A stretch of DNA of 64,000 bases, taken from Antedon mediterranea (taxonomy: Eukaryota; Echinodermata; Crinoidea; Comatulida; Antedonidae). The stretch lies in NCBI RefSeq assembly GCF_964355755.1, contig NC_092672.1, forward strand, positions 21,698,501 to 21,762,500, given 5' to 3'. The position numbers were made by a program, and so were the translations under genes. Positions 7,793 through 58,964 of this stretch are shown here, piece by piece; position 1 is the first letter of the stretch, and each line of letters starts with the position of its first letter. Below the pieces are notes generated by a model. That model was not told where the DNA came from. It searched no databases and saw only the letters and a program-made list of their open reading frames with translations.

Positions 7793-8717
7793 GCCTGAGG
7801 TACCCTCTCAGAGTAGACCTCCTCCCCATGTTCCATACTTTGATGTTGGCCCACAGCAGACCTCGTTTTTCGATGGTTCGTCCGTCCGCCAAAGGGACTA
7901 CGATAGTGACAGGACGATGGCCTCGCTCTCTGACGATGATAGAGATAGCTTACGAGAGCAGGCCGGGCCAGGGGAGGAAGGTCTGCAGGCGCTAGTTATG
8001 TGGACGGTCCCCGCGGTGCTGTCCTTTCTCGGCGTCGATTTCACTTTTCGGGAGCCTAAGCATACTCCTTCGTCTAAGCGGTATTCCACTTTTGGCGTAC
8101 GCACGCCTTTTAAGAAGGTATCTTCGTGCCCGGTTACGCCTCTCGATCCAGAACTTGTGGAACGTGTGGAGCTGATCGCTAGGGAGTCCAAGATTCGTAG
8201 GCCTATGCCTTATAGCCTTTCATCGGCTTTTCCGGTGCCGCGCGTCCCGGAGGCAGCGAAGGAACGGGTCCGTGAGGACCAGAACCTGGACCCGTCCAGG
8301 ACTAATTTTTTTAAGCCTTCGGAATCCCGGACAGAGGACGTCCTTATGTCCGTCGACAGGGCCGCACGCGAGACGCTTAGAGCCGCCTCTATGGCCGGGT
8401 ACTTGCTATCTTTTCTGGCTGATCCAGAACATCCGCCCCAGGGCGATTCGGACGTGATAGCTCTACTACAGCAGATCATGGACCTGGTTGTTGATCAACA
8501 GGCAACGATCTCATTATCTGCGGCCGCGGCCCGTCGCGTTAACGTCTTGGGTGCAACTGACATCGCACCGACCGATTTCCGTAGGTTTACTACGTCTGAC
8601 TCCTTCGGGGCGCATGACTTGTTCTTTGGCTCCTTTTCACAAAAGGAGGATAAATGGGCTCGTGAGAGGGAAGCTCGTCGGGAGACAAGAGCGCTTCCCG
8701 CAAAAACGCCGAGCTAG
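7725..8717 (+). CDS. gag: DIRS gag, main body
   Basis: A 330-codon open frame containing sequence typical of DIRS gag: an FFDGSS-type motif, an acidic stretch (SLSDDDRDS), and a C-terminal helical region (RETLRAASMAGYLLSFL, then DVIALLQQIMDLV) resembling the conserved DIRS capsid segment. The first ATG of this frame lies inside the gag N-terminal frame, so it is probably a downstream fragment of one protein and not an independent gene. Its last 230 nt overlap the start of the RT frame, as is usual in compact DIRS elements, so RT may be expressed by frameshift or reinitiation. Confidence 0.75.
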   Translation: MRFLRGYCKQAIVAAVRALPRDEPEVPSQSRPPPHVPYFDVGPQQTSFFDGSSVRQRDYDSDRTMASLSDDDRDSLREQAGPGEEGLQALVMWTVPAVLSFLGVDFTFREPKHTPSSKRYSTFGVRTPFKKVSSCPVTPLDPELVERVELIARESKIRRPMPYSLSSAFPVPRVPEAAKERVREDQNLDPSRTNFFKPSESRTEDVLMSVDRAARETLRAASMAGYLLSFLADPEHPPQGDSDVIALLQQIMDLVVDQQATISLSAAAARRVNVLGATDIAPTDFRRFTTSDSFGAHDLFFGSFSQKEDKWAREREARRETRALPAKTPS

Positions 8718-10944: not shown

Positions 10945-11857
10945 AACACTTTTTCAAATGGTGCAAGCGCCAGAAGACCGACCCAATGAAAGTCACTTTG
11001 GGCCAGGTCTGCGCTTCCCTACATTACCTGTTTGAGTCAGGTCTGCAGATTCGCACCGTATCCGGCTATCGGTCTGCCTTGGGTGCAGTAATTCCGAATT
11101 TTGAAGACGGCTCGACCATCTCTTCATTCCCTGCAATTTCCAGTTTGCTTCGCGGGATGTTTCGAGAACGGCCTCCTACTAAGGCCCTGATTCCACGTTG
11201 GGACGTCAATGTCGTCCTAGCCGCTCTTATGCGTCCACCCTTCGAGCCCCTGAGTAGGGCATCACTTTACAACCTGTCTCTCAAAACTGCCTTTTTGATT
11301 GCACTAGCCTCGTGCAAGCGCAGAGGTGAACTGCACGCTCTTTCTCTGGAGCCAGGGCACATCAGGTTTGAACGGGGGGTGGCGCGCGGTTAGTTTTTAG
11401 AAAAGATTTCCTTGCAAAATCTCAGACATTGAACTTCTCGCCGCCGACTGTGTTTATTCCCACCATTGCTGCATATTCAGGGGTTGAGGAAGACAGACTT
11501 TGGTGCCCAGTGCGGGCACTAAAGTTTTACATCAAACGCACAGAGTCCATTCGGGTCTCAGCGTCACATCTGTTCATATCGACAGTTTCACCCTTCCGAC
11601 CGGCTGCTCGGTCGACACTTGCAAACTGGGTCGTGGCAGCCATCCGGGCTGGTTACGACTCCACAGATACGCCTCCTCTGGCACACCAAGTGCGTGGCAT
11701 TGCCGCTTCATGGGTGCTGTTTGCTGGGGTGCCCCTCCCAGACATCCTGCAAGCGGCATGGTGGCGATCACAGTCCACCTTCACATCCCACTACCTGTCA
11801 GATACCTCCGCAAACCAGTCTACGGTGGCTGCTTCAATCTTGAAGCCCAGACACTAG
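10833..11857 (+). pseudogene. DIRS tyrosine recombinase (one frameshift)
   Basis: ATG 10833 opens a frame with an N-terminal SAM-like core-binding region, then the catalytic domain. The first catalytic Arg lies in the CKRRGEL motif (~11313). Reading stops at TAG 11391, just after a six-G run (11374-11379). The remainder, in the -1 frame from about 11380 to 11857, carries HQVRG (His-x-x-Arg, ~11685) and the nucleophile context TSHYL (Tyr, ~11790). All catalytic residues R...HxxR...Y are therefore present but split by one 1-nt change. The enzyme would integrate circular DIRS cDNA without target duplication. It overlaps the end of the RT frame by about 110 nt. Confidence 0.85.
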
Positions 11858-18472: not shown

Positions 18473-18803
18473 ATTGGCGCTGCGAGCAAAAAGGATAATT
18501 ATTCCTGTATTTTTGATTGTTTTCCTGAGGAATTGGTGTGTGTGTGATAGAAGACACACTTGTTCCGCATATTATGCAAATTAGTTTCCAAGGAAAAGCA
18601 TTTGCCGCGTTATTACGGTACGGTGTGTTGCTGTTAGTATTAATTAATAGGATACAAACATTGGTGTGTCCATGAGGATTTTTATTATAATTGATTGTTA
18701 ATTAATATTTATTCTGCTTTTGGAAATCGCGAGTCGATCTCCAGCGGCGGGTTTCAAACCTTCCAGTTTAGGTATTATAGTTAATAGTAGCATCTGGATT
18801 ATC

Positions 18804-19313
18804 ATGCCTATAGACGGTAATCGCATTCGGGTGAATTTTTGTACACTCGAACAATTATGCGATATTCCGGGGATAGGAGTGGTTCGGGCGGACGAGATTT
18901 TGTCCCTTAGGACCAGATTGGGTAATATTTCGTCTGTAATAGATTTAAGTTCTATTAAGGGTCTGAGTAAGAAGCCAGAATTCTTGAACAGATTTGATTT
19001 TGCACCTAACCATATGTTGTCACCCGAGGACTTTAGTCGAATGTTGGGTTCTGTGTCTTCATTGGTAGATTATCGGAATGATTCCGCAGCCCAGCATTTA
19101 GGATCTGAGGGTGGGGCTGGTAGGGGAGGCTCTGGGGAAAAGGGAGTAGTTTTTGATAGGGCTCACCATGGATTAGGTGATATATCTTCGATGGTCCGGC
19201 GGCAGGGGTCGGCATCATCTGGGTCTGCTGGGGTTAGTAAGGGCGCCTATACAATTAAAAGTGCTCTAAAGCAGGAGGTGAGTCCCGGGAATGGCGATAC
19301 TCGTTCCCGGTAA
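18804..19313 (+). CDS. Helix-hairpin-helix-like N-terminal gag ORF
   Basis: The preferred start is ATG 18804; an upstream in-frame ATG at 18720 would add 28 unremarkable residues. The first ~55 residues read like a ComEA-type helix-hairpin-helix domain: NFCTLEQLCDIPGIG, then RADEILSLR, and a second hairpin-like SSIKGLSKKPEFL. The rest is Gly/Ser-rich. The ORF ends at 19313 and the same frame reopens at 19335. HhH domains normally bind DNA without sequence specificity, so a role in packaging or nuclear targeting of the element is conceivable. I know of no standard Ty3/gypsy gag with this domain, so the assignment is inference from motif shape. Confidence 0.55.
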   Translation: MPIDGNRIRVNFCTLEQLCDIPGIGVVRADEILSLRTRLGNISSVIDLSSIKGLSKKPEFLNRFDFAPNHMLSPEDFSRMLGSVSSLVDYRNDSAAQHLGSEGGAGRGGSGEKGVVFDRAHHGLGDISSMVRRQGSASSGSAGVSKGAYTIKSALKQEVSPGNGDTRSR

Positions 19314-19334
19314 ACTGAGCAAAACCTTAAGTTT

Positions 19335-19604
19335 ATGTCCTTTAGGGAATTCTCTCTTTCTCCAGAGAACCAGGAAGGGGGTTACTCTAGTGGGGAGGAG
19401 GCTCACGTAGGTTCCGCAGAAGAGTACGCAGCGACTCTCCAGTACAAGGCTGGGGAGATATCCGCATGTAGAGGGGGAATGAGTTTAGCGGGAATAAAGG
19501 ATATGGGACTCCGGTGTCGGAAGGGGATATCCGGCTCCACGGAGGGATTCTCAAAGGGACGAAGTTGGTACAGGCCGCCAATGGGCAAAGATGAGAGAGG
19601 GTAA
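19335..19604 (+). pseudogene. Gag linker region, interrupted
   Basis: In the same frame as the HhH-like ORF and separated from it by a single stop region (19311-19334). It encodes 89 Gly/Arg/Ser-rich residues with no recognisable domain and ends at TAA just before a nine-G run at 19610-19620. It probably once linked the HhH-like part to the capsid part. Confidence 0.4.
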
Positions 19605-19708
19605 CTCATGGGGGGGGGGGAGATAGATCAGGGAACGGGTTCCCTGGGGATGGTACTTGGGACCGTCCTGAATATCGTCCACGGGTTGAAAGACCAGGAC
19701 CCTCGCAC

Positions 19709-20982
19709 ATGCCTACTCGCCAGGAAGCGGATTGGACTTCGGACCGATTCGAGAGGTGGGATGGATACCAGGGGTCCGAGTCTCCGTATGGATGGCCATC
19801 TGGTCGTCAACGGGAGGGGCCAGGTCGTCAGGACTGGGACTATTCATGGGTCGTTCCACAACCCTGGGGTAGATACGAAGAGGGGCCAGTATTATACCAG
19901 GACCGAAGGGATAGAGGTCCAAGGGCTGGAACTAGGGGTAGTAGGTCGGGCGGTAGGCCAAGATGGGAACCTTTCCGTTCTAAGGACGTCCCGAGGAGCC
20001 TGGTATATAGAGGGAAGGATAACTGGGCTTTCTTTAAACGTAGATTTAGGGCCTTTTCGGAAGAGCATCATCTTTCGCCCTGGGAGATGAAGGAGGCTTT
20101 GTGTTGGTGCGTGGAAGGGGCTGCGGCGGACCTCTACACCAATTTAGTAACAATGGATGGGGAAATTTCCTTTTGGGATATGATTCATGCCTTTGACCAA
20201 CGGTTTACGGAGGATGAACTTCCCGAGGTCCTTCAGGCCAAATTAGAGACTGCATCCCAACAGGGAACAGAGTCAGTAGGGGAATGGGCCGATCGGGTAT
20301 TAACCCTAACTAAGAAAGCATTCAAGCCGCTTTCCAATGAATGGATACAGAGACATTCAGCTATGAAGTTCTGTATCGGGTGCCGTAACACGGGGTGGGA
20401 AAATTGGTACTTTTTGAAAATTGCGCGACTATGTCCGAGGCGCTTAGAAAGTATGATAAATTTAACAGCCTCCAATCTCTTTATGAAACTAAGTGGGGAA
20501 AAGAGATGGCGTCACTACCACCCCAGGCAAGGTCTCCATTGGTCTCGACTAGGCCGACGACACAATCACATCCGCTTTCCTCCATGCCCGTCCAACTGGA
20601 GGAGGACAACGATAGTGAGGTGGAGAGGGATCCCGTAGTGCGGTTAGTTGAGCGTAGGCCAGGGGTGGAAAATAGGGGATTTTACAGACCACCACCTAGA
20701 GGTGGGGCCGAGGCCCAGCCGGGTGGGTTAGGTAAAAGGGTTATGGCGATAGAGGCAGATTTGGCCCAGGTTAAAGGGTTGTTAAAAAGGGTCTTGGAAA
20801 TAGTAGAGGGTTGGGATCGTTTGGGTGGGGGCTCAGGGCTGTCACCTCCTCCCCAATCCACTACTACTAACTGGGACCGCTGTTTTGAATGTAATGAGGT
20901 GGGTCATTTCAAAAGGGAATGCCCAAAATTAGCGCGTCAAGCCAGGCAGGTAGGGGAACAAGAAGATCCTTTAAACGAATAG
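19709..20982 (+). pseudogene. gag: Ty3/gypsy gag (capsid plus zinc knuckle), frameshifted
   Basis: An Arg/Gly/Pro-rich start is followed by a capsid-like region (NWAFFKRRFRAFSEEHHLS, EALCWCVEGAAADLY, FDQRF, then WADRVLTL) typical of metazoan Ty3/gypsy gag. Near 20390 the frame shifts; the continuation (from 20395) holds KYDKFNSLQ, a possible coiled coil (VMAIEADLAQVKGLLKRV) and a CCHC zinc knuckle CFECNEVGHFKREC (about 20881-20922). It stops at 20982, overlapping the protease frame. Gag would assemble particles and bind RNA. The frameshift makes this copy non-functional as read. Confidence 0.8.
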
Positions 20983-22202
20983 GGGTCGGGGGTTGGGGCC
21001 TGACCACCGACTGCCAGCGTTTTGAAGGCTCGTGCGTTAAGCGGGAAGAGGTACAGGGGTACCCGGGTGGGGATCCTCTGGAGGTGTCCGTGGACATGGT
21101 TAGTCTAAAGGAAAGGGGACCATGCATAGTGGTAAATAGGGTAGAGTCGGCGAAGGCATTGCATGCCACAGTGTTTGTAAATGTGGTTCACACGGTAGCT
21201 GTAGTAGATACCGCTGCTGATTACACAATTCTCTCAGACCGGGTATTTGCCAAGCTGGATCCCGCCCCACCAATAATTGCAGAACTTTCCTTTAAATTAG
21301 CAGGGAGGGGGACTTCTATGCCGGGGTACCGGGTAGGCCCAGTCACTTTCGCATTAGGTTCCGAAGAGTACACTGAATATATGTACGTGGCGCTGGGAGG
21401 GGATTTTTTGATACCCAATCGAGCTCTTATCGATTGTGGGAAATTATTACTGTCTGTGGGAACAAGTACACTTTCGCTTCGCAAAGAGGCGGGGGAGGTT
21501 AGCCCTATGGTTGCTCGGGTGACGGTCGGCAAGCGCAGGGTGCTTCCTCCGTTTTCGGCGGGATATATACTGTGCCGGTTGGACGTAACAGGGGAGCATC
21601 TCCCCGATTATTTCAATGAACCCGACAATCAGGGGAAAGTTTTAATTCCATCTACCATTCATCGGGGTGGGACTGTTCCCAAAGTTTGCGTGGCGAATCT
21701 TACGGACAGATATGTAACACTGAAACAGGGAGAGGTTGTGGGGAATGCCACTGAGTGGGAGGGTAATCATGCGCCTTCTCAAGGGGGATCGGTGTCCACC
21801 GTAGGGGTTGACAGTGCAGAGAAATCCTCCACGGAACAGGGTGGGGTACCACAACACATGGAAGGGATGTTAGCGAATGTAAGGAAAACATTGTCCGGTT
21901 CCGAGTTCGATAGGGCGAAACAACTGCTCATTGAGTTCCAAGATGTCTTTGCGGCTCATCAATTTGATATAGGGACCTTGAAGGGTATTGAGCATACTAT
22001 CGATACGGGGGATGCGCCGCCAATCCGACAACGACTCCGACCAACTCCCATGCACTTCGCCGGGGAGGAGGAAAAGGAGATCAATAAAATGTTACAAGCA
22101 GGGGTGGTTCAGCCTTCAGTGTCCGAGTGGGCCTCTCCACCGGTGTTGGTACGCAAACGGGATTGCTCTCAGTGCGGTTCTGTATCGACTACCGGGCTCT
22201 AA
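20983..22202 (+). pseudogene. pol: Ty3/gypsy protease and N-terminal RT region
   Basis: The frame is open from 20919 to 22202 and overlaps the end of gag. The retropepsin active site reads VVDTAADYT (about 21199-21225; DTA in place of the common DTG). It is followed by a typical protease tail (LGGDFLIPNRALIDC). The linker leads to pre-RT sequence (HTIDTGDAPPIRQRLRPTP, EINKMLQAGVVQPS) found just before the RT core. A frameshift near 22165 moves the RT core into another frame. Confidence 0.75.
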
Positions 22203-23551
22203 ATAATGTTACAAGAAAGGACGCCTATCCTCTACCCTTGGTACGGGATTGTCTCGACGCTTTGTCGGGCAACACGTGGTTTACCAAATTGGATGCCATA
22301 TGGGTGTACTGGCAAATTAATATGGGGGAAAAGGATAAGAGAAAAACGGCATTCATTACCAAGTACGGGCTATTTGAATTCGTTAAAATGCCGTTCGGGC
22401 TATCAAATTGCCCAGCCACGTTTTCACGGGCTATGGGTTTAGTATTGAGGGGGCTAGCTTGGGACACCGTTCTTGCCTTTCTGGACGACATTGTAGTCAT
22501 GGGACGGACTTTTGATGAGTCGACCATTTGGGCAATGTCCGACATGTTTTAGAACGTTTCCGTGCAAGCAGCCTTAAGCTCAAGCCGAAAAAATGTATCT
22601 TTTTCCAACGGGAGGTGGAATTCCTAGGCCGGGTGGTTGGTGGGGATGCTTTATCGATTTCGGCTACAGATGTTACTGTAGTCCAGGATTGGCCCGTACC
22701 TACCTCGGTAAAGGAGTTGCAACAGTTTCTGGGACTGGCTAATTACCACCGGGAATCCATTGACCATTTTGCCGATAAGGCTGGGCCGTTGTACGGATTA
22801 CTGGGTAAAGGGGTGCCATTTGCATGGGGGCCCGAACAGCAAGCTGCTTTTGCTGGTTTAAAGTTGGCTCTCATTACACCCCCTGTTCTCACTCTTCCTA
22901 ATACCAGGGACGAATTCATTTTAGATGTGGATGCGTCAGACCTGGCGTTGGGGGGAGAACTACAAGGTACAAGGGGAACGGGAAAAGGTAATTGCGTATG
23001 CTAGCACCCGTCTTACGACGGAGCAACGCAATTACTGTACGACCCGCAAAGAATTATTGGCGGTGGTGTATTTGACGCGTCATTTTCGCCACTATCTTTT
23101 GGGTAGACCTTTCCGGGTTAGGACAGATCATAGCAGCCTGGTCTGGTTACTGTCGTTTAAAAACCCCCAAGGGCAATTAGCTAGGTGGATAGAGGAACTC
23201 AGCCTCTATAATCTTGTCCTGGAACATCGTAAGGGGGTACTACATGGGAATGCAGATGCGTTATCCCGTCAGGCCAGACCGGTTGACCACTTTGAGCAGA
23301 GGGTTGATCCCGGGGATTTGCCTTGCGGGGGATGCTCTTATTGCGTCAGGGCACATAGCCTGTGGGTCCGTTTCCGGGAGGACGTGGATGACGTAGTCCC
23401 GATTTCACAAATCCGGCAAATAGGACCGGACCCTAATGAGGAGGGGTTGGTGGACCCAGGTGGGACTACGATCGAGGTCGTACGGGGGTCTTCGTTCTGT
23501 GCCAGCAATTTGGCTCAGAACGGTGTGGTTGGGGATACTCCCGTGGCTTGA
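22127..23551 (+). pseudogene. pol: Ty3/gypsy reverse transcriptase and RNase H, broken in three frames
   Basis: RT core: RFCIDYRALNNVT, MPFGLSNCPATFSRAM and the active-site FLDDIVV (to 22552). The thumb and connection continue in a second frame from 22528 (LKPKKCIFF, LQQFLGLANYHR, DVDASD). RNase H continues in a third frame from about 22980 (RKELLAVVY, RTDHSSLVWL, GNADALSRQ) to 23551. The usual DLRSGYWQI motif is degraded (DAIWVYWQI). Order and motifs are clearly Ty3/gypsy. It cannot make an active enzyme as it stands. Confidence 0.85.
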
Positions 23552-44317: not shown

Positions 44318-44323
44318 TAAAAG
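44318..44323. repeat. 6-bp target-site duplication, left
   Basis: TAAAAG immediately before AGTAGTAAAAGTGGG; matched by TAAAAG at 58959-58964. Six bp is the usual Polinton duplication. Confidence 0.9.
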
Positions 44324-44389
44324 AGTAGTAAAAGTGGGACTTCAGCCCAAAGTTAACCTTGATGTATTTCCTGATTACGTAATATCCGC

Positions 44390-44531
44390 CAGGTGTTTCT
44401 AATGAAGGTCGTTTCCGCCAGGTGTTTCTAATGAAGGTCGTTTCCGGCAGGTGTTTCTAATGAAGGTCGTTCATTTCCTGTTATTGTATTAGTTATGTAA
44501 CTTCCTGCAGGTGTTTCTAATGAAGGTCGTT
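44390..44531 (+). repeat. Subterminal 24-bp repeats, left arm
   Basis: Four copies of CAGGTGTTTCTAATGAAGGT(CGTT) begin at 44390, 44419, 44448 and 44508; the first three are spaced exactly 29 bp apart. They start 66 bp from the element end. Mirrored in the right arm. Subterminal position and regular spacing suggest binding sites for an initiator or terminal-protein complex; this is inference. Confidence 0.85.
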
Positions 44532-45552
44532 CTTTTCCTGGTTTCGTACTAGTTATGTAATTTCCGCATAATAGTCCAATTTGACCAAAAATGATTTACA
44601 TGAAAAAACTATACTTTAAACAAAAAATCAAATTGATTGCAAGCTGCTGGAATTGGGGTTTTGGTTGAATGCCATTACAGTTTGTTTTTTTTTGCGGAGA
44701 GGTTATCCTGCAGGTCTAGTCAGTCGTGGTTATAACAATGGTTAACAATGGGGATAGTATAAGACAATAGAGTATATCATTTCACTAGAATTGTTATATA
44801 GATTTGTTATATATTAATATACATTATAATATAAAATTAATAAATATTAAATAAAAATGATATGGTAATTTAGTTGCTTGTGATGAGAACAAAATGGTTT
44901 ACAATGGTTGAAGTCAATAGGTGTTATGTTTCGGATTATAATACAATGGTTAACATAGGGTAAGGAAGTGAGACAATATAGTTTTTGTAAGATTTGAATT
45001 AGTCATAGAGTCAATAAAGATGCACCTGGTTAATTCAAACTAGTTAATTGAGGTTTTTGCTTGATGTATGCCGACATAATCCAAAGACATAAGTTATTTG
45101 ATCCGGATATTATAACAATGACTAAAACAAAAAGATAAGAATGAATGAAGTTAAATAATAAGTATGTCTTGATTGAACTATACCGACAGGTAATTAACCA
45201 TCTTCCGGATTTGTTAACAAAGGGGGATAAATCGAAAGCAGTGACACGGGGTGTTTGACATACTAAAGTTTAATGTGTGACGTCATGATGTTAGTTTCAC
45301 TATTTTTGATGATTTTTGTTTTCCAATGTTTAGTTTTATTGTCATTTAAATTGGTTACGTTTACAAAAAGATTTCTTTGTTTCCTTTTAAAATAAAACAA
45401 AAAGTGGGTAAAGAGGGACGCTACTGACACCATGCATAAATTTTTTTAGTGTGTATAAATATATGGGTAAATTTATAGTGAACTCATCAGTACCAGCTTA
45501 CAACGCACTAAACTCACTTCCACATTCTTGATTAAGAGAATTTTATTTTACA

Positions 45553-48500
45553 ATGGCTCATTACGAATCATCATCATCATCTTCCGATTCTAACGATAGC
45601 TTGTTTATCGAATGCCAGAGAGCAGTAGAAGCTATCGTTAGTTTATCGCGAAACAATATCGAAAATATCGATACCGACGAGGTTATCCCCGATGTTGGAC
45701 TACTAGAAGATTTCGTATAATGACCAGGATCTTGATTTAGATGTTAGCCAGAGTGTTTCTGAAGCCGATAGCCTCTCACTTTCGGATATTTGTAATAACG
45801 CTATTGAGATAGTGCAGGAGCTATCGGCTAATTTGCGTATTGATGACATAGAAGTAGGTGTTTGTTTTATTTTATTTTTTACGTAATATTTATTTTACCG
45901 TGTATAATTCTAAAAAAGTAGATTGTAATTGGGGGCATTTACAAAGTGTTTCTGCGTTTTCGGTTTATATACGTTTTCCTTTCTAATTTATCTAATTATT
46001 TTTATTTCTGTATAGTACGGTGTTGGTGCTCACACCAAATGTTTGAGTTTGAGAGGAAATGTCGAGATTAATGATTCAGCGGAGTCTTCGATTATTGAGG
46101 TAACTATCGTTTTATTTTCTTTACTACTGTTGTTGTTGTTGTTGTTGTTGTTGTCGTACAACGTCTTTTATTTCTTTTTCTTTACTGTTTTTCTCTTTTT
46201 GTTTTCAGCCTGTACCCATACAGTACGGAAGGGGCGTTAATAGAAAGAGGCTCAGAATCGAAGACGGGGAAGAAGAAGAAGAAGAAGAATTTGCCGACAT
46301 TGATACTGTTGAAGACGAGGACCTTAACCTTGATGAGGTAGAGTTGAATCACTTCTGTAGAATCGTTCAAGTAGCTGATAGGTATAATCAACGTTTTAAC
46401 GCGACTATTAGCGATTTTTTAGTAAATTTTTTAATATTGATCATATAAGTTTAGAGGTGTTTCTGCCCACACTGTATCGAATTTTCGAGCATGTCGTCGA
46501 TAATCTCTGCGTTAACGTGCATGTCGACGACATGATTCGAATAGTCATACAGGCTGAGGGGTTAGATTCACCTATCTCTATCCCTTTTGGACGGAGGGGC
46601 CATCTTACGGCTGACGTTATTTTTGCAGCCATTATGAAGGTCCTTCAGTCCAAAACGGATATTTTTATTAATAACAAATTTAAATTTAACGTTCTTCACA
46701 TGAGAATGCCTAGGGGTGGGGGCTATAGAAGAAACGGTATCGACATATTGTTAAATGCTAAATGTATAATTAAGATTAAGAATGATGATAACGAAACTAT
46801 CTGCTGCGCACGCGCTATTGTTACGGGTATTTCTATGCTCGAAGACAAAATTAACAACGTGGCTAGATGGAATAACGTTAGGCAAGGTAGGGGTCAGCAA
46901 AAAATAGCCGCCCTTCATTTACTTAGAGATTCGGTGGTTAGGGAGCAGACATGCGGCATCGAGGAAATAAAAAAGATGCAATCAAAATTACCAAATTACC
47001 AAATTATTGTCATTTCAAAAGACAATTTAAATTCTGTCATTTTTAGCGGCGATTATAGAAAGAAGCAGATATATCTTTATCATCATTCTAATCATTACGA
47101 TCTCATAACCACAATGACAGGTTTTCTAAAATTTGACTATTTCTGCGATAGATGTCATAAGGGGTATAATCACAAATACCAACACAATTGTCAATTTACG
47201 TGCGTGCTGTGTAAGCACAATGACTGCCCCTCTTCTAATTCTTTTGAAAATAGAGAGAGTAGAATAGAATGTAGAGAATGTAATAGATTTTTTAAGGATA
47301 AGCAATGTTTCACCAATCATAAAAAATCTCCTGATTCTAAAGTTTCAGTATGTGGCAAAATTAAAAATTGTTCAATTTGTAATAGGATCGTTCAAAAAGA
47401 TCACAATTGTCAAAACCGCTTTTGTAGAATTTGTAGGACTTTCGTTTCATACGATCATCAATGCTACATGGAACCGGTTGTAGCCCCTAAGCATACTGAA
47501 AGAAAGTTTAAGAATCAGGAGGCCCGTAACAGAGCTGTCACCAAATATTTCTTTTTTGATTTCGAATGCACGCAAGATACAGGCGAACACAAACCAAATT
47601 TATGCGTTCTTCAAAAAACTTGTCTTAATTGTATCGACGGTGCTAATGATTCTGCCGATTGTGACGTGTGTGGGGATAAAACAGTGGTTTTTCACGGGGG
47701 TCTGCATGCGAAGATTTCTGCAATTACGTATTCAAGATTACAAATTTAACGAAAATATTACGTGTATCGCTCACAACTTCCAGGGTTATGATAGTTACTT
47801 CGTGCTCAACTACCTGTACGAAAACTCCATTGTACCGGATGTAATTGCTCGCGGTGGTAAACTTATTTCGATTAGGACTAAAGAAACGAGCATTCGATTC
47901 ATCGATTCCCTTTCATTTCTACCCATGCCTCTATCCAAATTGCCCAAAACTTTTGGCATCTCCGAACTTAAAAAGGGTTACTTTCCTCATTATTTTAATT
48001 CTTTAGAAAACCAAAATTACGTAGGTCCTTACCCCGATTCTTCAAATTATTCCCCCGATAAAATGACTACTTCAGGTCGAGAATCTTTCTTTAAATGGTA
48101 CAACCAGAAAATTGAAAGTAATCAAGTATTAATTGATCTTAAAAAAGAACTCGTCGAGTATTGTATCAGCGATGTAGATATTCTCAGAAAGTGTTGTCTT
48201 ACTTTTAGACATCTTTTTTTGAAAGTAACTATATCGCCGAAAAACCCTCTACTCGGCGGTGTTGACCCCTTTTCAAATAATTTAATGACAATTGCCTCAG
48301 CGTGTAACCACGTATTTTCTAGAAATTTTTTAAAACCGTCCACCATCGCTCTATTTCCACCATCAGGGTATCTAACAACCGTTAACCATTCTCACTCTAG
48401 CATGGAATGGCTGTGCTACGAGTCGCATAAAAAGGGGGTCTTTATCCATCATGCTAGAAATGGAGGGGAAAAATTGTTTGGGCCTTACTTCGTCGACGGC

Positions 48501-50144
48501 TCATGTTTAGAAAGCAAAATAATTTTCGAATTTATGGGTTGTTTTTTCCACGGGTGCCAAGATTGTTATAGACCCGATTCCATTAATCCCTTCAATAACG
48601 AGACCATGTTGGAATGCTTTGTCAAGACAAGCAAGAAATCACGGTTTCTGAAGGAACAATTTCCGGATTTCGAATACGTCGAAATTTGGGGGCACGAATG
48701 GAAACGGATCAAAAAATCGTTGGCCCCAAACATTAAATCTATCGTCTCCAAAGTTCCTTTAATTAGGCAAACTTTGAATCCAAGAGACGCGTTTTTCGGT
48801 GGGAGGACTAATGCCAGTTGTTTGTTCTATAAGGTAAAACCGGGTGAAGAAATTAATTACATAGATTATACTTCCTTGTACCCTTATGTAAATAAATACG
48901 GTACCTACCCCGTAGGGCATCCTGCAATCAATGATCGCAACGACATGTCCACGGATATCAACGATTATTTCGGCTTGATAAAGTGTACAATCGAAGCGCC
49001 TAAAAAATTATTCCATCCGGTCTTACCTTATAGATCAAACGGTAAATTAATGTTTGCTCTCTGTAGAACATGCGCCGATTCCCAACAACAAACCGCTTGC
49101 AATCATTCCGGTACAGATAGAGAATTTACGGGTTCTTGGGCAACGATCGAAGTTGCTAAAGCCGTGGAAGTTGGGTACGAGATACGTAAAGTTCACGTAG
49201 TATGGCACTTTAAAAATAAAAGCGCGTACTCTGCAGATTCTCCCTCGTCCGGCCTATTTGCCTCTTACATTAACACCTTTTTAAAATTGAAACAAGAAGC
49301 TTCGGGTTGGCCTGAATGGTGTAAAACGCCCGAAGATAAACAAAAATACATTTCGGACTATCGAACCGTAGAAGGTATCGACTTGAATCATGACGACATT
49401 GCGTACAATCCTGGGCTTCGATCTCTGGCCAAATTAATGCTAAATAGTTTTTGGGGTAAATTTGGCCAGCGTGAAAATCTCACGAAAATTAAATATACGC
49501 AAGATCCTAACGAGGTTTACGATATTTTATCGAACCCTGGGATAACCGTTCATGACATAAATTTTGTTAATGATGATTTGGCGGAGGTAAAATACGAGGA
49601 CGAGGAACAATTTGTAGAAGTTAACCGAAAGGTTAACGTTGTCATTGCCGCATTTACCACAGCGTTAGCGCGTTTAAAATTGTACGAGCTGTTGGAACAA
49701 TTACAGGAGCGCGTCCTGTATTATGATACCGACAGCGTAATCTTCGTATCAAAACCCGGGGATTGGGACCCTCCCCTGGGCGACTATTTGGGTCAGTTAA
49801 CGACCGAGGTCGATCCTAAAGATGGTAAATTCATCGAGTCCTTCGTTTCTGGGGGGCCTAAGAACTACGCCTATAAATTGGATACGGGGAAGACCGTTTG
49901 TAAAGTTAAGGGTTTTACCCTTAACTTTACAAACGCTCAGAAAATTAATTTTGACACCGTCTCCAATATGGTAAGGGGTGTTGGCCCCGATACAATTAAG
50001 ACGGTTGAGAAGAATCGCATAACGCGCAAGCCAAAAACACGAAAGATAGTCAACGAAACATCGACTAAAGACTATCGAATCGTGTACGACAAAAGAATTA
50101 TTATCGAAAATTATCGCACAGTTCCTTACGGGTATGTTTGGTGA
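45553..50144 (+). pseudogene. Protein-primed DNA polymerase B, left copy (four small deletions)
   Basis: Same three-exon structure as the right copy: exons 45553-45853, 46016-46099 and 46209-50144, with donors and acceptors preserved. Compared with the right copy it has a 2-nt deletion near 45719 (immediate TAA), and 1-nt deletions in a T-run near 46431, a G-run near 47700 and an A-run near 47738. Long open pieces remain: 46457-47749 (zinc-finger and Exo I part) and from about 47740 to 50144 (Exo II to the end, including DYTSLYP, NSFWGKFGQ and YYDTDS). All four breaks lie in short homopolymers, so either neutral decay or residual sequencing error could explain them. Confidence 0.88.
49895..49935. 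repeat. Perfect 19-bp inverted repeat inside the polymerase coding sequence
   Basis: Arms 49895-49913 and 49917-49935 (CGTTTGTAAAGTTAAGGGT and its exact complement) are separated by 3 nt. They lie over the conserved KVKGF codons, and the structure is kept in the right arm at 53311-53351. Confidence 0.95.
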
Positions 50145-51372
50145 ATCACGGCCATAAATTTCTTTTTAAAAATGTAAACATACTTTGTTATAGATAATTA
50201 TTTGTTACTCTTTATACATTCTTTACCGTACTCTCCCTCTTTTTATAGTTTGAACAAAATATATTTGTAGTTTTAATGTAAATATTTTTATATCTGTTTT
50301 AATATAAATAATTTTTATACCCGTTTTTTAAAGTCGAATTTTTGCTGGTTAAGTAAATATATTTTTAAATATTTTTCCGCTTGATTTTCTTATGTCGATA
50401 CCGTTTCTCTTTTTGTAGATTAAGTACATATATTTCGTAATTTTAATTTAAATATTTTACCACTTGAATTCTTATGTCGATACCGTTTCTCCTTTTTGTA
50501 GATTAAGTAAATATATTTTTCCACTTGAATTTCTTATGTCGATACCGTTTCTCTTTTTGTAGATTAAGTAAATATTGTTATAACTGTTTTAATGTTAATA
50601 AATTTTATACTTATAATATCTATTTTTTTAGATTAAGCAATATTTTTGTAATTTTAATTTAAATATTTTACCACTTGAATTCTTATGTCGATACCGTTTC
50701 TCTTTTTTTTTTGTAGATTAAGTAAATGTTGTTATAACTGTTTTAATGTTAATAAATTTTATACTTATAAAGTCGATTTTTGTAGATTAAACAATATTTT
50801 TGTATTTTCAATTTAAATATTTTTCGACTTGAATTCTTATGTCGATACCGTTTCTCATTTTGCGGATTAAGCAAATACATTTTTGTAAAGTTATTTTTGT
50901 TTTATACGAAATTTGAAATAAATTTAATCACTGTACTTGTTTTATAATATATATACTTGTCTGTTTCTTAATGTCGTCGTTGGATACGATAAATTAAAAA
51001 ATTACAGTCACCATTACGTACGTCTTTTGTTGTTGTTGTTTGTTACCGTCATCGTTTATAGATTTATTCTTTATAAGTATGTCGATTAATTTCAGAATCA
51101 AAAACTTGTTACATAAGAAAAAAAAAAAATGGTCATGAAATTCGTTAAATAAAAAATAATTTATCAAGAATCTTTTTACATAAATTTTATTTTATCATTA
51201 AATTTGTTACATAAAAATAATTTGTCAAGAATCTTTTTGCATAAAATTTATTTTGTCATTAAGTTTGTTACATAAAAAAAAAAAAAAATAATTGTTTCAT
51301 GAATCTTGTTACATTTTTTAAATTTTTGTTTTCAACTACTTATATGAAAATTCAAGTTAAGAACGCAGTATA
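50145..51372. repeat. AT-rich minisatellite between polymerase and ATPase stub, left arm
   Basis: About five copies of a ~60-130-bp unit containing CTTATGTCGATACCGTTTCT and GTAGATTAAGTAAATAT occur between 50380 and 50880. Non-coding AT-rich sequence with repeated TTTGTTACATAAAAA words follows to 51310. Mirrored at 51880-53101. No gene is seen. Confidence 0.8.
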
Positions 51373-51504
51373 ATGACAATGACTGAGCGTTTAGTAACAC
51401 CTTTCACCGCGGTGATTAGCGGACAGACTTCCTCCGGTAACTCGGTATTTGTTAACAATCTTTTAGAAAATAATTACTTTAAAAAAATAAAACAAGTCGT
51501 TTGA
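51373..51504 (+). pseudogene. Truncated Polinton packaging ATPase (A32/FtsK-like), left stub
   Basis: ATG 51373 opens a 43-codon frame that begins as Polinton genome-packaging ATPases do: TPFTAVISGQTSSGNS is a P-loop (GxTxSGKS type) with Asn where the catalytic Lys should be, then VFVNNLLEN. The frame stops at 51502. In another frame CYGEYQ follows (51518-51535), resembling the segment after the P-loop in these ATPases, before TAG at 51539. Homology ends about 65 bp before the palindrome centre. The full enzyme, normally about 250 residues, would pump DNA into capsids; only ~20% remains. Confidence 0.75.
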
Positions 51505-51606
51505 TGATATGACATAGTGTTATGGCGAATATCAAACTTAGTTAGAGAAGTAAATACTGTTTGTGTTTACATGCGTGTCATAGTAGAGTTTGTAATTACG
51601 TTTTTT

Positions 51607-51645
51607 ACACAACTAACGACAACATAATAATACATTTCTATATTG
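51607..51645. other. Asymmetric 39-nt centre of the palindrome
   Basis: Unpaired spacer between GTAATTACGTTTTTT (ending 51606) and its complement (starting 51646). It marks the fold-back or template-switch point. Confidence 0.9.
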
Positions 51646-51747
51646 AAAAAACGTAATTACAAACTCTACTATGACACGCATGTAAACACAAACAGTATTT
51701 ACTTCTCTAACTAAGTTTGATATTCGCCATAACACTATGTCATATCA

Positions 51748-51879
51748 TCAAACGACTTGTTTTATTTTTTTAAAGTAATTATTTTCTAAAAGATTGTTAA
51801 CAAATACCGAGTTACAGGAGGAAGTCTGTCCGCTAATCACCGCGGTGAAAGGTGTTACTAAACGCTCAGTCATTGTCAT
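51748..51879 (-). pseudogene. Truncated Polinton packaging ATPase, right stub
   Basis: Mirror of the left stub (ATG at 51879). It has the same Asn in place of the P-loop Lys, so that change predates duplication of the arms or is natural to this family. In addition the P-loop Gly before it is Cys (TGT for GGT), a change unique to this arm. It stops at the same place. Confidence 0.75.
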
Positions 51880-53101
51880 TATACTGCGTTCTTAACTTGA
51901 ATTTTCATATAAGTAGTTGAAAACAAAAATTTAAAAAATGTAACAAGATTCATGAAACAATTTTTTTTTTTTATGTAACAAACTTAATGACAAAATAAAT
52001 TTTATGCAAAAAGATTCTTGACAAATTATTTTTATGTAACAAATTTAATGATAAAATAAAATTTATGTAAAAAGATTCTTGATAAATTATTTTTTATTTA
52101 ACGAATTTCATGACCATTTTTTTTTTTCTTATGTAACAAGTTTTTGATTCTGAAATTAATCGACATACTTATAAAGAATAAATCTATAAACGATGACGGT
52201 AACAAACAACAACAACAAAAGACGTACGTAATGGTGACTGTAATTTTTTATTTTATCGTATCCAACGACGACATTAAGAAACAGACAAGTATATATATTA
52301 TAAAACAAGTACAGTGATTAAATTTATTTCAAATTTCGTATAAAACAAAAATAACTTTATAAAAATGTATTTGCTTAATCCGCAAAATGAGAAACGATAT
52401 CGACATAAGAATTCAAGTCGAAAAATATTTAAATTGAAAATACAAAAATATTGTTTAATCTACAAAAATCGACTTTATAAGTATAAAATTTATTAACATT
52501 AAAACAGTTATAACAACATTTACTTAATCTACAAAAAAAAAAAGAGAAACGGTATCGACATAAGAATTCAATTGGTAAAATATTTAAATTAAAATTACAA
52601 AAATATTGCTTAATCTAAAAAAATAGATATTATAAGTATAAAATGTATTAACATTAAAACAGTTATAACAATATTTACTTAATCTACAAAAAGAGAAACG
52701 GTATCGACATAAGAAATTCAAGTGGAAAAATATATTTACTTAATCTACAAAAAGGAGAAACGGTATCGACATAAGAATTCAAGTGGTAAAATATTTAAAT
52801 TAAAATTACGAAATATATGTACTTAATCTACAAAAAGAGAAACGGTATCGACATAAGAAAATCAAGCGGAAAAATATTTAACAATATATTTACTTAACCC
52901 GCAAAAATTCGACTTTAAAAAACGGGTATAAAAATTATTTATATTAAAACAGATATAAAAATATTTACATTAAAACTACAAATATATTTTGTTCAAACTA
53001 TAAAAAGAGAGAGAGTACGGTAAAGAATGTATAAAGAGTAACAAATAATTATCTATAACAAAGTATGTTTACATTTTTAAAAAGAAATTTATGGCCGTGA
53101 T
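51880..53101. repeat. AT-rich minisatellite, right arm
   Basis: Mirror of 50145-51372, with units around AGAAACGGTATCGACATAAG between about 52390 and 52860. No gene is seen. Confidence 0.8.
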
Positions 53102-56100
53102 TCACCAAACATACCCGTAAGGAACTGTGCGATAATTTTCGATAATAATTCTTTTGTCGTACACGATTCGATAGTCTTTAGTCGATGTTTCGTTGACTAT
53201 CTTTCGTGTTTTTGGCTTGCGCGTTATGCGATTCTTCTCAACCGTCTTAATTGTATCGGGGCCAACACCCCTTACCATATTGGAGACGGTGTCAAAATTA
53301 ATTTTCTGAGCGTTTGTAAAGTTAAGGGTAAAACCCTTAACTTTACAAACGGTCTTCCCCGTATCCAATTTATAGGCGTAGTTCTTAGGCCCCCCAGAAA
53401 CGAAGGACTCGATGAATTTACCATCTTTAGGATCGACCTCGGTCGTTAACTGACCCAAATAGTCGCCCAGGGGAGGGTCCCAATCCCCGGGTTTTGATAC
53501 GAAGATTACGCTGTCGGTATCATAATACAGGACGCGCTCCTGTAATTGTTCCAACAGCTCGTACAATTTTAAACGCGCTAACGCTGTGGTAAATGCGGCA
53601 ATGACAACGTTAACCTTTCGGTTAACTTCTACAAATTGTTCCTCGTCCTCGTATTTTACCTCCGCCAAATCATCATTAACAAAATTTATGTCATGAACGG
53701 TTATCCCAGGGTTCGATAAAATATCGTAAACCTTGTTAGGATCTTGCGTATATTTAATTTTCGTGAGATTTTCACGCTGGCCAAATTTACCCCAAAAACT
53801 ATTTAGCATTAATTTGGCCAGAGATCGAAGCCCAGGATTGTACGCAATGTCGTCATGATTCAAGTCGATACCTTCTACGGTTCGATAGTCCGAAATGTAT
53901 TTTTGTTTATCTTCGGGCGTTTTACACCATTCAGGCCAACCCGAAGCTTCTTGTTTCAATTTTAAAAAGGTGTTAATGTAAGAGGCAAATAGGCCGGACG
54001 AGGGAGAATCTGCAGAGTACGCGCTTTTATTTTTAAAGTGCCATACTACGTGAACTTTACGTATCTCGTACCCAACTTCCACGGCTTTAGCGACTTCGAT
54101 CGTTGCCCAAGAACCCGTAAATTCTCTATCTGTACCGGAATGATTGCAAGCGGTTTGTTGTTGGGAATCGGCGCATGTTCTACAGAGAGCAAACATTAAT
54201 TTACCGTTTGATCTATAAGGTAAGACCGGATGGAATAATTTTTTAGGCGCTTCGATTGTACACTTTATCAAGCCGAAATAATCGTTGATATCCGTGGACA
54301 TGTCGTTGCGATCATTGATTTCAGGATGCCCTACGGGGTAGGTACCGTATTTATTTACATAAGGGTACAAGGAAGTATAATCTATGTAATTAATTTCTTC
54401 ACCCGGTTTTACCTTATAGAACAAACAACTGGCATTAGTCCTCCCACCGAAAAACGCGTCTCTTGGATTCAAAGTTTGCCTAATTAAAGGAACTTTGGAG
54501 ACGATAGATTTAATGTTTGGGGCCAACGATTGTTTGATCCGTTTCCATTTGTGCCCCCAAATTTCGACGTATTCGAAATCCGGAAATTGTTCCTTCAGAA
54601 ACCGTGATTTCTTGCTTGTCTTGACAAAGCATTCCAACATGGTCTCGTTATTGAAGGGATTAATGGAATCGGGTCTATAACAATCTTGGCACCCGTGGAA
54701 AAAACAACCCATAAATTCGAAAATTATTTTGCTTTCTAAACATGAGCCGTCGACGAAGTAAGGCCCAAGCAATTTTTCCCCTCCATTTCTGGCATGATGG
54801 ATAAAGACCCCCCTTTTATGCGACTTGTAGCACAGCCATTCCATGCTAGAGTGAGAATGGTTAACGGTTGTTAGATACCCTGATGGTGGAAATAGAGCGA
54901 TGGTGGACGGTTTTAAAAAATTTCTAGAAAATACGTGGTTACACGCTGAGGCAATTGTCATTAAATTATTTGAAAAGGGGTCAACACCGCCGAGTAGAGG
55001 GTTTTTCGGCGATATAGTTACTTTCAAAAAAAGATGTCTAAAAGTAAGACAACACTTTCTGAGAATATCTACATCGCTGATACAATACTCGACGAGTTCT
55101 TTTTTAGGATCAAATACTTGATTACTTTCAATTTTCTGGTTGTACCATTTAAAGAAAGATTCTCGACCTGAAGTAGTCATTTTATCGGGGGAATAATTTG
55201 AAGAATCGGGGTAAGGACCTACGTAATTTTGGTTTTCTAAAGAATTAAAATAATGAGGAAAGTAACCCTTTTTAAGTTCGGAGATGCCAAAAGTTTTGGG
55301 CAATTTGGATAGAGGCATGGGTAGAAATGAAAGGGAATCGATGAATCGAATGCTCGTTTCTTTAGTCCTAATCGAAATAAGTTTACCACCGCGAGCAATT
55401 ACATCCGGTACAATGGAGTTTTCGTACAGGTAGTTGAGCACGAAGTAACTATCATAAACCTGGAAGTTGTGAGCGATACACGTAATATTTTCGTTAAATT
55501 TGTAATCTTTGAATACGTAATTGCAGAAATCTTCGCATGCAGACCCCCCGTGAAAAACCACTGTTTTATCCCCACACACGTCACAATCGGCGGAATCATT
55601 AGCACCGTCGATACAATTAAGACAAGTTTTTTGAAGAACGCATAAATTTGGTTTGTGTTCGCCTGTATCTTGCGTGCATTCGAAATCAAAAAAGAAATAT
55701 TTGGTGACAGCTCTGTTACGGGCCTCCTGATTCTTAAACTTTCTTTCAGTATGCTTAGGGGCTACAACCGGTTCCATGTAGCATTGATGATCGTATGAAA
55801 CGAAAGTCCTACAAATTCTACAAAAGCGGTTTTGACAATTGTGATCTTTTTGAACGATCCTATTACAAATTGAACAATTTTTAATTTTGCCACATACTGA
55901 AACTTTAGAATCAGGAGATTTTTTATGATTGGTGAAACATTGCTTATCCTTAAAAAATCTATTACATTCTTTACATTCTATTCTACTCTCTCTATTTTCA
56001 AAAGAATTAGAAGAGGGGCAGTCATTGTGCTTACACAGCACGCACGTAAATTGACAATTGTGTTGGTATTTGTGATTATACCCCTTATGACATCTATCGC

Positions 56101-57698
56101 AGAAATAGTCAAATTTTAGAAAACCTGTCATTGTGGTTATGAGATCGTAATGATTAGAATGATGATAAAGATATATCTGCTTCTTTCTATAATCGCCGCT
56201 AAAAATGACAGAATTTAAATTGTCTTTTGAAATGACAATAATTTGGTAATTTGGTAATTTTGATTGCATCTTTTTTATTTCCTCGATGCCGCATGTCTGC
56301 TCCCTAACCCCCGAATCTCTAAGTAAATGAAGGGCGGCTATTTTTTGCTGACCCCTACCTTGCCTAACGTTATTCCATCTAGCCACGTTGTTAATTTTGT
56401 CTTCGAGCATAGAAATACCCGTAACAATAGCGCGTGCGCAGCAGATAGTTTCGTTATCATCATTCTTAATCTTAATTATACATTTAGCATTTAACAATAT
56501 GTCGATACCGTTTCTTCTATAGCCCCCACCCCTAGGCATTCTCATGTGAAGAACGTTAAATTTAAATTTGTTATTAATAAAAATATCCGTTTTGGACTGA
56601 AGGACCTCCATAATGGCTGCAAAAATAACGTCAGCCGTAAGATGGCCCCTCCGTCCAAAAGGGATAGAGATAGGTGAATCTAACCCCTCAGCCTGTATGA
56701 CTATTCGAATCATGTCGTCGACATGCACGTTAACGCAGAGATTATCGACGACATGCTCGAAAATTCGATACAGTGTGGGCAGAAACACCTCTAAACTTAT
56801 ATGATCAATATTAAAAAAATTTACTAAAAAATCGCTAATAGTCGCGTTAAAACGTTGATTATACCTATCAGCTACTTGAACGATTCTACAGAAGTGATTC
56901 AACTCTACCTCATCAAGGTTAAGGTCCTCGTCTTCAACAGTATCAATGTCGGCAAATTCTTCTTCTTCTTCTTCTTCCCCGTCTTCGATTCTGAGCCTCT
57001 TTCTATTAACTCCCCTTCCGTACTGTATGGGTACAGGCTGAAAACAAAAAGAGAAAAACAGTAAAGAAAAAGAAATAAAAGACGTTGTACGACAACAACA
57101 ACAACAACAACAACAACAACAGTAGTAAAGAAAATAAAACGATAGTTACCTCAATAATCGAAGACTCCGCTGAATCATTAATCTCGACATTTCCTCTCAA
57201 ACTCAAACATTTGGTGTGAGCACCAACACCGTACTATACAGAAATAAAAATAATTAGATAAATTAGAAAGGAAAACGTATATAAACCGAAAACGCAGAAA
57301 CACTTTGTAAATGCCCCCAATTACAATCTACTTTTTTAGAATTATACACGGTAAAATAAATATTACGTAAAAAATAAAATAAAACAAACACCTACTTCTA
57401 TGTCATCAATACGCAAATTAGCCGATAGCTCCTGCACTATCTCAATAGCGTTATTACAAATATCCGAAAGTGAGAGGCTATCGGCTTCAGAAACACTCTG
57501 GCTAACATCTAAATCAAGATCCTGGTCATTAAATACGAAATCTTCTAGTAGTCCAACATCGGGGATAACCTCGTCGGTATCGATATTTTCGATATTGTTT
57601 CGCGATAAACTAACGATAGCTTCTACTGCTCTCTGGCATTCGATAAACAAGCTATCGTTAGAATCGGAAGATGATGATGATGATTCGTAATGAGCCAT
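53102..57698 (-). CDS. Protein-primed DNA polymerase B of Polinton, right copy (intact, three exons)
   Basis: Exons 57698-57396, 57233-57150 and 57037-53102 join in phase 0 through GT-AG introns (162 and 112 nt), giving a predicted 1440 residues. The N-terminus is Ser/Asp/Glu-rich (MAHYESSSSSSDSNDS; EEEEEEE in exon 3). A Cys/His-rich region follows (~442-619). The 3'-5' exonuclease has Exo I FFDFE (~580), Exo II NFQVYD (~653) and Exo III YCISD (~780). A GCFFHGC motif typical of Polinton polymerases is near 906. Polymerase motifs are DYTSLYP (~1015), KLMLNSFWGKFGQ (~1204), YYDTDS (~1300) and KVKGF (~1361). It would copy the linear element from a protein primer. ATG 57698 is preferred because the frame is open upstream of any exon-3 ATG. 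Confidence 0.93.
53311..53351. repeat. Coding hairpin, right-arm copy
   Basis: Perfect 19-bp arms (53311-53329, 53333-53351) with a 3-nt loop; mirror of 49895-49935. Confidence 0.95.
57062..57122. repeat. Trinucleotide microsatellite in polymerase intron 2
   Basis: An ACA run at about 57093-57121 (mirror TTG/TGT run at 46130-46152) lies in the second intron; the arms differ by one triplet. Confidence 0.8.
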
Positions 57699-58750
57699 TG
57701 TAAAATAAAATTCTCTTAATCAAGAATGTGGAAGTGAGTTTAGTGCGTTGTAAGCTGGTACTGATGAGTTCACTATAAATTTACCCATATATTTATACAC
57801 ACTAAAATAATTTATGCATGATGTCAGTAGCGTCCCTCTTTACCCACTTTTTGTTTTATTTTAAAAGGAAACAAAGAAATCTTTTCGTAAACGTAACCAA
57901 TTTAAATGACAATAAAACTAAACATTGGAAAACAAAAATCATCAGAAATAGTGAAACTAACATCATGACGTCACACATTAAACTTTAGTATGTCAAACAC
58001 CCCGTGTCACTGCTTTCGATTTATCCCCCTTTGTTAACAAATCCGGAAGATGGTTAATTACCTGTCGGTATAGTTCAATCAAGACATACTTATTATTTAA
58101 CTTCATTCATTCTTATCTTTTTGTTTTAGTCATTGTTATAATATCCGGATCAAATAACTTATGTCTTTGGATTATGTCGGCATACATCAAGCAAAAACCT
58201 CAATTAACTAGTTTGAATTAACCAGGTGCATCTTTATTGACTCTATGACTAATTCAAATCTTACAAAAACTATATTGTCTCACTTCCTTACCCTATGCAT
58301 AGAGTTGATAACAACTCCCTGCCCTATGTTAACCATTGTATTATAATCCGAAACATAACACCTATTGACTTCAACCATTGTAAACCATTTTGTTCTCATC
58401 ACAAGCAACTAAATTACCATATCATTTTTATTTAATATTTATTAATTTTATATTATAATGTATATTAATATATAACAAATCTATATAACAATTCTAGTGA
58501 AATGATATACTCTATTGTCTTATACTATCCCCATTGTTAACCATTGTTATAACCACGACTGACTAGACCTGCAGGATAACCTCTTCGCAAAAAAAAACAA
58601 ACTGTAATGACATTCAACCAAAACCCCAATTCCAGCAGCTTGCAATCAATTTGATTTTTTGTTTAAAGTATAGTTTTTTCATGTAAATCATTTTTGGTCA
58701 AATTGGACTATTATGCGGAAATTACATAACTAGTACGAAACCAGGAAAAG

Positions 58751-58892
58751 AACGACCTTCATTAGAAACACCTGCAGGAAGTTACATAACTAATACAATA
58801 ACAGGAAATGAACGACCTTCATTAGAAACACCTGCCGGAAACGACCTTCATTAGAAACACCTGGCGGAAACGACCTTCATTAGAAACACCTG
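58751..58892 (-). repeat. Subterminal 24-bp repeats, right arm
   Basis: Four copies of AACGACCTTCATTAGAAACA(CCTG) at 58751, 58811, 58840 and 58869; mirror of the left set with identical spacing. Confidence 0.85.
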
Positions 58893-58958
58893 GCGGATAT
58901 TACGTAATCAGGAAATACATCAAGGTTAACTTTGGGCTGAAGTCCCACTTTTACTACT

Positions 58959-58964
58959 TAAAAG
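58959..58964. repeat. 6-bp target-site duplication, right
   Basis: TAAAAG directly after ...TTTTACTACT; identical to 44318-44323. Confidence 0.9.

Follow-up and report, generated by a model that had tools for sequence, protein, structure and literature searches.

Polinton/Maverick transposons, Foldback/Galileo elements, the self-complementary genomes of adeno-associated virus (AAV) and the mirror-image derivatives of linear plasmids are the closest described counterparts of the element reported here. This element lies on contig C3 of the 354-Mb genome of Antedon mediterranea, within a stretch of 64,000 nucleotides (21698501-21762500) referred to throughout as the window. It is a 14.6-kb palindrome of two inverted arms carrying polymerase B (PolB) genes and ending in Polinton-type termini. 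Other loci are named by contig and megabase.

Kikuchi et al. reportedly described, in 1985, palindromic and hairpin linear plasmids of the yeast killer-plasmid type, a protein-primed replicon with mirror-image derivatives. Yeast killer-type linear plasmids are cytoplasmic and are not integrated. The polymerase of phi29 is of the same broad type as that of Polintons. It switches to displaced strands, and the resulting chimeras are mainly inverted and often primed at short complementarities (PMC1855051, PMC4176320; these and the other sources cited by PMC number were available in part). Inverted dimers are also produced by origin-dependent inverted-repeat amplification (PMC4689423), for which, as far as the available part of that source goes, element termini with target-site duplications (TSDs) are not expected.

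Vertebrate Mavericks have the same type of end motif and a 6-bp TSD (PMC8097293). The window element resembles Polintons in its PF03175 polymerase, (AGT)2-type ends, 6-bp TSD and ATPase remnant, and full-length elements closely related to it reside in this genome; it differs in being wholly palindromic, in possessing two polymerase genes and in its gene content, since no integrase, capsid or protease gene was recognised in the seven scanned open reading frames (ORFs) of the 18 in the arms of at least 80 amino acids, which yielded PolB and the degenerate start of an ATPase only. Because the full Polinton gene set (integrase, capsid, protease and ATPase) was not found in these ORFs, the element is classed by its sequence as a non-autonomous Polinton derivative rather than an autonomous Polinton.

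With Foldback/Galileo elements it shares very long inverted repeats, which make up most of the element, internally repetitive ends, high similarity between the terminal inverted repeats (TIRs) of one copy and a non-autonomous character (PMC3573991). It departs from them in its Polinton termini, 6-bp TSD, whole genes within the arms and conserved short centre, and its arms measure 7.3 kb as against approximately 1.3 kb at most for Galileo in the available part of the same source. AAV snapback genomes are likewise self-complementary subgenomic molecules, one class of which retains the replication-gene end; the virus is unrelated, however, and the available part of the account describes particles, not a transposing family (PMC8235507). 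No palindromic, inverted, foldback or terminal-repeat Polinton family was found in the titles and abstract openings among the literature matches listed, a search whose coverage leaves out most subscription journals.

Palindromic elements with 6-bp duplications occur at separate sites in this genome, with shared centres and with cargo in both arms. We consider it probable, at roughly 0.62, that the window element is one member of an inherited, mobile family of palindromic non-autonomous Polinton derivatives, termed here palindromic satellites. Members would share a plan of two mirror arms, each comprising terminal repeat, leader, one cargo gene, repeats and inner module, around a short conserved spacer.

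Structure of the window palindrome

Self-comparison bears out the two inverted arms of about 7.3 kb and the 39-nt spacer described in the original prediction, as well as the Polinton-type termini and the perfect TAAAAG duplication (Table 1). The 15-base terminal motif AGTAGTAAAAGTGGG is present in the window at the two element ends and at no third site, and the probability of a 6-bp duplication matching by chance at the base composition of the window is approximately 5e-4; chance was rejected as an explanation. The flanks outside both termini are not palindromic. A segmental inverted duplication extending into the flanks is ruled out, as the palindrome stops at the termini, and the argument that this stop and the TSD exclude an assembly foldback holds. 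The hexamer TAAAAG is also found inside the terminal repeat, at element bases 6-11 (window 44318-44334).

The arms differ by 31 substitutions in 7,273 aligned bases (0.43%) and by 10 indel events. The substitutions are evenly distributed (Kolmogorov-Smirnov p = 0.50), with three in the terminal 1000 bases where 4.3 would be expected.

Palindromic sister elements

A query of 353 bases, consisting of the last 307 arm bases and the spacer (centre A), yielded 77 matches in the genome. C8:7.70M has the same junction as the window centre and matches at 98-99%; further centre A loci are C4:17.99M, C4:31.89M and C3:23.76M, and older copies of approximately 77-80% identity are located on C1, C2, C3, C4, C6 and C9. 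By eye, the spacer is homologous, in either orientation, in the window element, C8:7.70M, C1:31.30M, C2:23.68M, C6:14.40M and two C4 copies. At C4:17993951-17996334 two centre A copies face away from each other, and the element around them carries a leader at each end.

Two of these loci were delimited by perfect duplications: C8:7.70M (7695036-7708358; 13,323 bp; TSD CGTGTC) and C1:31.30M (31297273-31310825; 13,553 bp; TSD AATGTT). Both are palindromic by their ends, centre and two-arm cargo, the intervening stretches having been read in part. The element at C3:21.95M is flanked by CGTACA/CATACA, a TSD with one mismatch. Approximately 5.4 kb of foreign DNA interrupts its right arm (L012:3368-7500, L025:1-1305).

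The leader of the window element matches the left ends at C8:7.70M, C3:23.76M and C1:31.30M in pieces 97-99% identical, as far as compared. Many loci were matched by a leader query of 584 bases. Read from the match table, 13 of these form inverted pairs, which were not counted as palindromes, since leaders also terminate non-palindromic elements. Both termini and a perfect TSD were present in the predicted end windows of two of eight leader pairs (C1:31.30M and C8:20.17M); for the other six no terminus fell in the predicted windows, and these were not counted as negatives.

At least three types of cargo are recognised in the family from sequence: PolB, an AlkB-type oxygenase and an ORF designated ORF225. 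In place of the polymerase, C8:7.70M and C3:23.76M carry ORF225 (264-291 codons, stop to stop), which had no Pfam match, and C1:31.30M carries an AlkB-type 2OG-Fe(II) oxygenase (PF13532, 2.1e-22). The right arm at C8:7.70M holds the same cargo as the left, with 99.5% identity over 1,001 bases, while at C1:31.30M two AlkB copies are equal in score and the midpoint of the pair, 31304049, is that of the element. The AlkB cargo occupies stretches L053:381-794 and 1409-1789, the second of which alone matches Pfam.

Where neighbouring copies of the same cargo lay no more than 20 kb apart, they were convergent in 30 cases (four PolB, 10 AlkB, 16 ORF225), divergent in none and tandem in one, against a random expectation of approximately 0.07-0.14 neighbouring pairs per cargo. 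These counts are based on 35 PolB, 36 AlkB and 50 ORF225 copies after fragments were merged by hand, without the 11 AlkB rows scoring worse than 1e-15; the PolB copies derive from 88 genome matches to PF03175 and are lower bounds. The convergent PolB pairs represent four loci, namely the window, C3:21.95M, C9:16.69M and a much diverged pair at C5:3.33M. The last of these, an inverted pair of Polinton-like PolB genes (C5:3324000-3339300; L015/L016), has arms 99.4-99.6% alike and a centre of approximately 1.3 kb.

A second centre, centre B, is common to six AlkB loci and is also present in the PolB pairs C3:21.95M and C9:16.69M; its loop measures 61-64 nt at the four AlkB loci that allowed clean measurement. 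It turned up at 16 loci, none of them farther than approximately 6 kb from a match to AlkB or PolB, one of the 16 being a match of 40 bases; the possibility that centre B is an unrelated high-copy repeat was dropped given this small number of loci, all near AlkB or PolB. In nine AlkB pairs with centre B, it fell within two bases of the midpoint of the gene pair in five and 164-706 bases from it in four. Centre windows at eight AlkB pairs were clearly palindromic in four and partly so in one, and in three the window missed the centre. As PolB and AlkB are each found with both centres, cargo and centre have been exchanged. By eye, the centre B loop (L057, L058 and relatives) contains a small internal hairpin kept across loci, which may be a cis signal.

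Divergence within and between loci

At the loci compared, similarity between the two arms of one copy exceeds that between copies, as in foldback-type elements. Within loci, the arms differ by 0.33% at C8:7.70M (5/1502), 0.16% at C3:23.76M (2/1280) and 0.09% at C1:31.30M (1/1106), figures that cover 1.1-1.5 kb at the centre where that for the window covers the whole arm; older arms differ by 0.42-1.31% at C3:21.95M and by 2.5% at C6:14.40M. Between loci, divergence is 1.3-1.5% (window-C8 and C3-C8) and 6.4-13.5% (C1-C8). Within-locus divergence thus lies far below that between the loci compared, which indicates that the arms were made alike again around insertion. The spacer thus predates the likeness of the arms. 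At C3:23.76M the original centre has given way to a new loop of 74 nt and, in both arms, approximately 96 bases of novel sequence, a replacement that is hard to obtain unless one arm was copied from the other.

Gene content of the arms

The polymerase is of Polinton type by Pfam (PF03175, E = 2.9e-43), a match that places it among predicted family B polymerases of the protein-primed type. Among the 51 relatives recovered, identity in the best 17 is 41-46%; the few with names belong to bivalves and a sea spider. Viral contigs queried with the polymerase and with a 17-protein alignment yielded no relative. Pieces of Polinton-type PolB were also observed in two short contigs filed as Solemya velum gill symbiont (NZ_JRAA01000007.1 and NZ_JRAA01000010.1), and are probably host DNA within a bacterial assembly.

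Substitutions between the arms within the PolB frame were nonsynonymous in 12 of 16 cases and synonymous in four, in agreement with unselected decay of the gene. Comparison with 16 homologues revealed derived-looking changes in each arm: the right arm has lost a glycine kept by 13 of the 16, and at a second site the left arm has lost a glycine kept by eight. The right-arm frame has a derived change in what we take to be the exonuclease II region. Derived changes in each arm point to two copies ageing separately and not to one sequence read twice.

The ATPase remnant was identified through the ATPase ORF of a full-length relative on C10 (L017 8323-8958; Pox_A32 2.1e-5, Adeno_IVa2 2.9e-3). The 43-residue fragment on its own produced no protein relative in a word search, weak P-loop look-alikes in Pfam and chance-level matches in PDB. 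The original prediction had correctly given each arm a polymerase end and the start of a packaging ATPase, yet its estimate of approximately 20% of the ATPase was low: the piece covers between roughly one quarter and one third of the gene and is degenerate in both arms, with an altered Walker A motif and stops. These lesions are largely common to the window element, C8:7.70M and C3:23.76M, one stop being absent in C3:23.76M, and those of the window element appear to be inherited. At the 18 non-window loci examined, long matches to the window arm start at arm coordinate ~6733 or further inward; outside this point the sequence differs from the 18 loci up to the terminal region. PolB meets the inner module near coordinate 6733, at a rearranged joint.

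A full-length relative

A full-length Polinton, read end to end in two pieces, is present on C10. It encodes a single PolB, an ATPase, an rve integrase with a chromodomain and an adenovirus-type protease (Peptidase_C5); no capsid protein was named by Pfam. Its TSD is CCTATT by eye; as the one full-length copy whose two ends were compared, it has long and imperfect TIRs, approximately 83% alike over 728 bases. Such an element could act in trans through its integrase, protease and ATPase. It also encodes a PC4/p15 coactivator domain protein (L026:4786-5544, minus strand; PF02229, 5.3e-22) and, between PolB and ATPase, a Bcl-2-like ORF (L017:7622-8113, minus strand; PF00452, E = 0.001, below the curated cut-off), traces of which persist in palindromic elements.

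Features of the window

Table 1. Features of the palindromic element, in window coordinates
Feature	Position	Strand	Basis
Left TSD, TAAAAG	44318..44323		End comparison
Left terminal motif AGTAGTAAAAGTGGG, (AGT)2-type Polinton/Maverick end	44324..44338	+	Motif search in window
Left arm	44324..51606	+	Self-comparison
Terminal/leader region	44356..45418	+	Matches at other loci
29/60-bp minisatellite, within terminal repeat	44385..44566	+	Window sequence
PolB gene, left arm, disrupted by several frameshifting indels; putative small upstream exons and promoter (by eye)	45553..50144	+	ORFs, Pfam, arm alignment
AT-rich tandem repeats 3' of polymerase, left arm	50369..50861	+	Window sequence
Inner module (chassis A), common to loci with the same centre type	51056..51606	+	Locus comparison
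Degenerate N-terminal packaging ATPase remnant, left arm	51373..51606	+	Comparison with full-length relative
39-nt spacer; homologous spacers elsewhere in genome	51607..51645		Self-comparison and locus comparison
ATPase remnant of right arm, mirroring that of the left save for one substitution	51646..51879	-	Arm alignment
Right arm	51646..58958	-	Self-comparison
PolB open frame, right arm, 1347 codons, PF03175	53102..57145	-	ORF, Pfam and homologue comparison
Right terminal motif	58944..58958	-	Motif search in window
Right TSD, TAAAAG	58959..58964		End comparison

Two retroelements elsewhere in the window were named by eye. Positions 7725-11857 hold a DIRS-like element, whose best reverse-transcriptase relative is 51% identical, the named ones being from sea stars at 48%, and positions 18702-23551 hold a Gypsy-like element.

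Origin of the palindrome

If the window element belongs to an inherited family, the palindrome would be passed on and move as a unit, with integrase supplied in trans by full-length Polintons and, for members without PolB, the polymerase too. Replication would be extrachromosomal: a protein-primed, strand-displacing polymerase would start at a terminus, turn at the centre and copy its own strand (snap-back). The arms would then be identical at or just before insertion, most simply via snap-back, and would decay apart afterwards, the window element having aged to 0.43%. The even divergence of the window arms and the two-arm change of centre at C3:23.76M agree with snap-back copying, with which the uneven arms at C3:21.95M disagree. 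A more far-reaching version, which we hold tentatively, is that the heritable unit is a half-genome, each copy being regenerated as a mirror image with one arm as template for the other about a conserved central loop. Transcripts running through the centre would then form long hairpins, which could silence helper Polintons.

Several loci weigh against an inherited palindrome. C8:20.17M has TIRs and a perfect TSD, CTTGTG, yet its midpoint is not palindromic, so that a convergent pair need not be a full palindrome; most of the 30 convergent pairs are known as gene pairs and not as whole arms. C9:16.69M is composite: its ends do not match, it lacks a TSD, and its arms are approximately 97% alike. 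The right arm at C3:23.76M is approximately 3.3 kb longer than the left. A single centre arm is found at C3:23.75M, C3:27.29M and C5:10.56M, and the two centre copies at C4:17.99M face away from each other without forming a simple palindrome. At C1:31.30M no recognisable ATPase remnant is left. The arms at C3:21.95M differ by 1.31% in the inner part (42/3206) and 0.42% in the outer (13/3085), an unevenness that fits tract-wise gene conversion better than a single copying event. The main rival reading is terminal-repeat expansion in place, as in the repair step set out for Galileo in the available part of PMC3573991. On this reading an ordinary Polinton is inserted first; one of its halves then breaks and is mended with the terminal repeat of the other side as template, copying proceeds inwards until ends are joined close to the midpoint, and subsequent gene conversion maintains the likeness of the arms. 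Such expansion would keep the TSD and termini, and it draws support from the patchy divergence at C3:21.95M, the right-type end retained outside the palindrome at C9:16.69M, the long imperfect TIRs of the C10 copy and the existence of single-arm and irregular centre copies, C4:17.99M among them. We nevertheless regard it as rather unlikely. Two observations count against it as the sole process: the same spacer at loci with different TSDs argues that the palindrome itself moves, and the divergence of the window arms is even along their whole length. Many recurrences with the same junction would also be required.

That a self-complementary, Polinton-derived molecule was placed in the window like a normal insertion, as originally predicted, is supported by the present data. 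The same prediction took it to be a defective-interfering Polinton formed once by snap-back and inserted at this one site, in keeping with the anatomy, the TSD and termini and the gene order TIR-PolB-ATPase, which matches that of the full-length relative. This part did not survive comparison with the rest of the genome and is now improbable. The search that it called for, for full-length Polintons and other palindromic copies in the same genome, recovered both (C10; C8:7.70M and C1:31.30M); centre and terminal region recur with other cargo and other TSDs, the ATPase lesions are common to sister loci, the joint between PolB and inner module (~6733) is rearranged, and there are other inverted PolB pairs. 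A related element with two polymerase genes so arranged, which the prediction itself had named as evidence to the contrary, exists in part at C3:21.95M. Snap-back was a fair guess and is a good candidate for how the form arose, and would apply to a family of which the window copy is one. An assembly or library artefact, through missed adapters or foldback reads, is highly improbable; palindromes are a known class of artefact, but here there are arm-specific substitutions, unlike flanks, TSDs at both ends and a spacer homologous across loci.

Implications

Were the half-genome reading true, differences between the arms would be cleaned in each cycle, and a gene captured by one arm would become two. 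If the inherited-family reading is correct, it would show that a virus-like DNA transposon can persist stably and in multiple copies as a palindromic foldback genome that carries genes and has an inbuilt means of repairing one arm from its partner. Such genomes would also provide natural, datable examples of what strand switching by a protein-primed polymerase may yield, in which the divergence of the arms is a clock started at insertion. The formation of foldback elements and the extrachromosomal replication of Polintons would thereby become directly testable questions.

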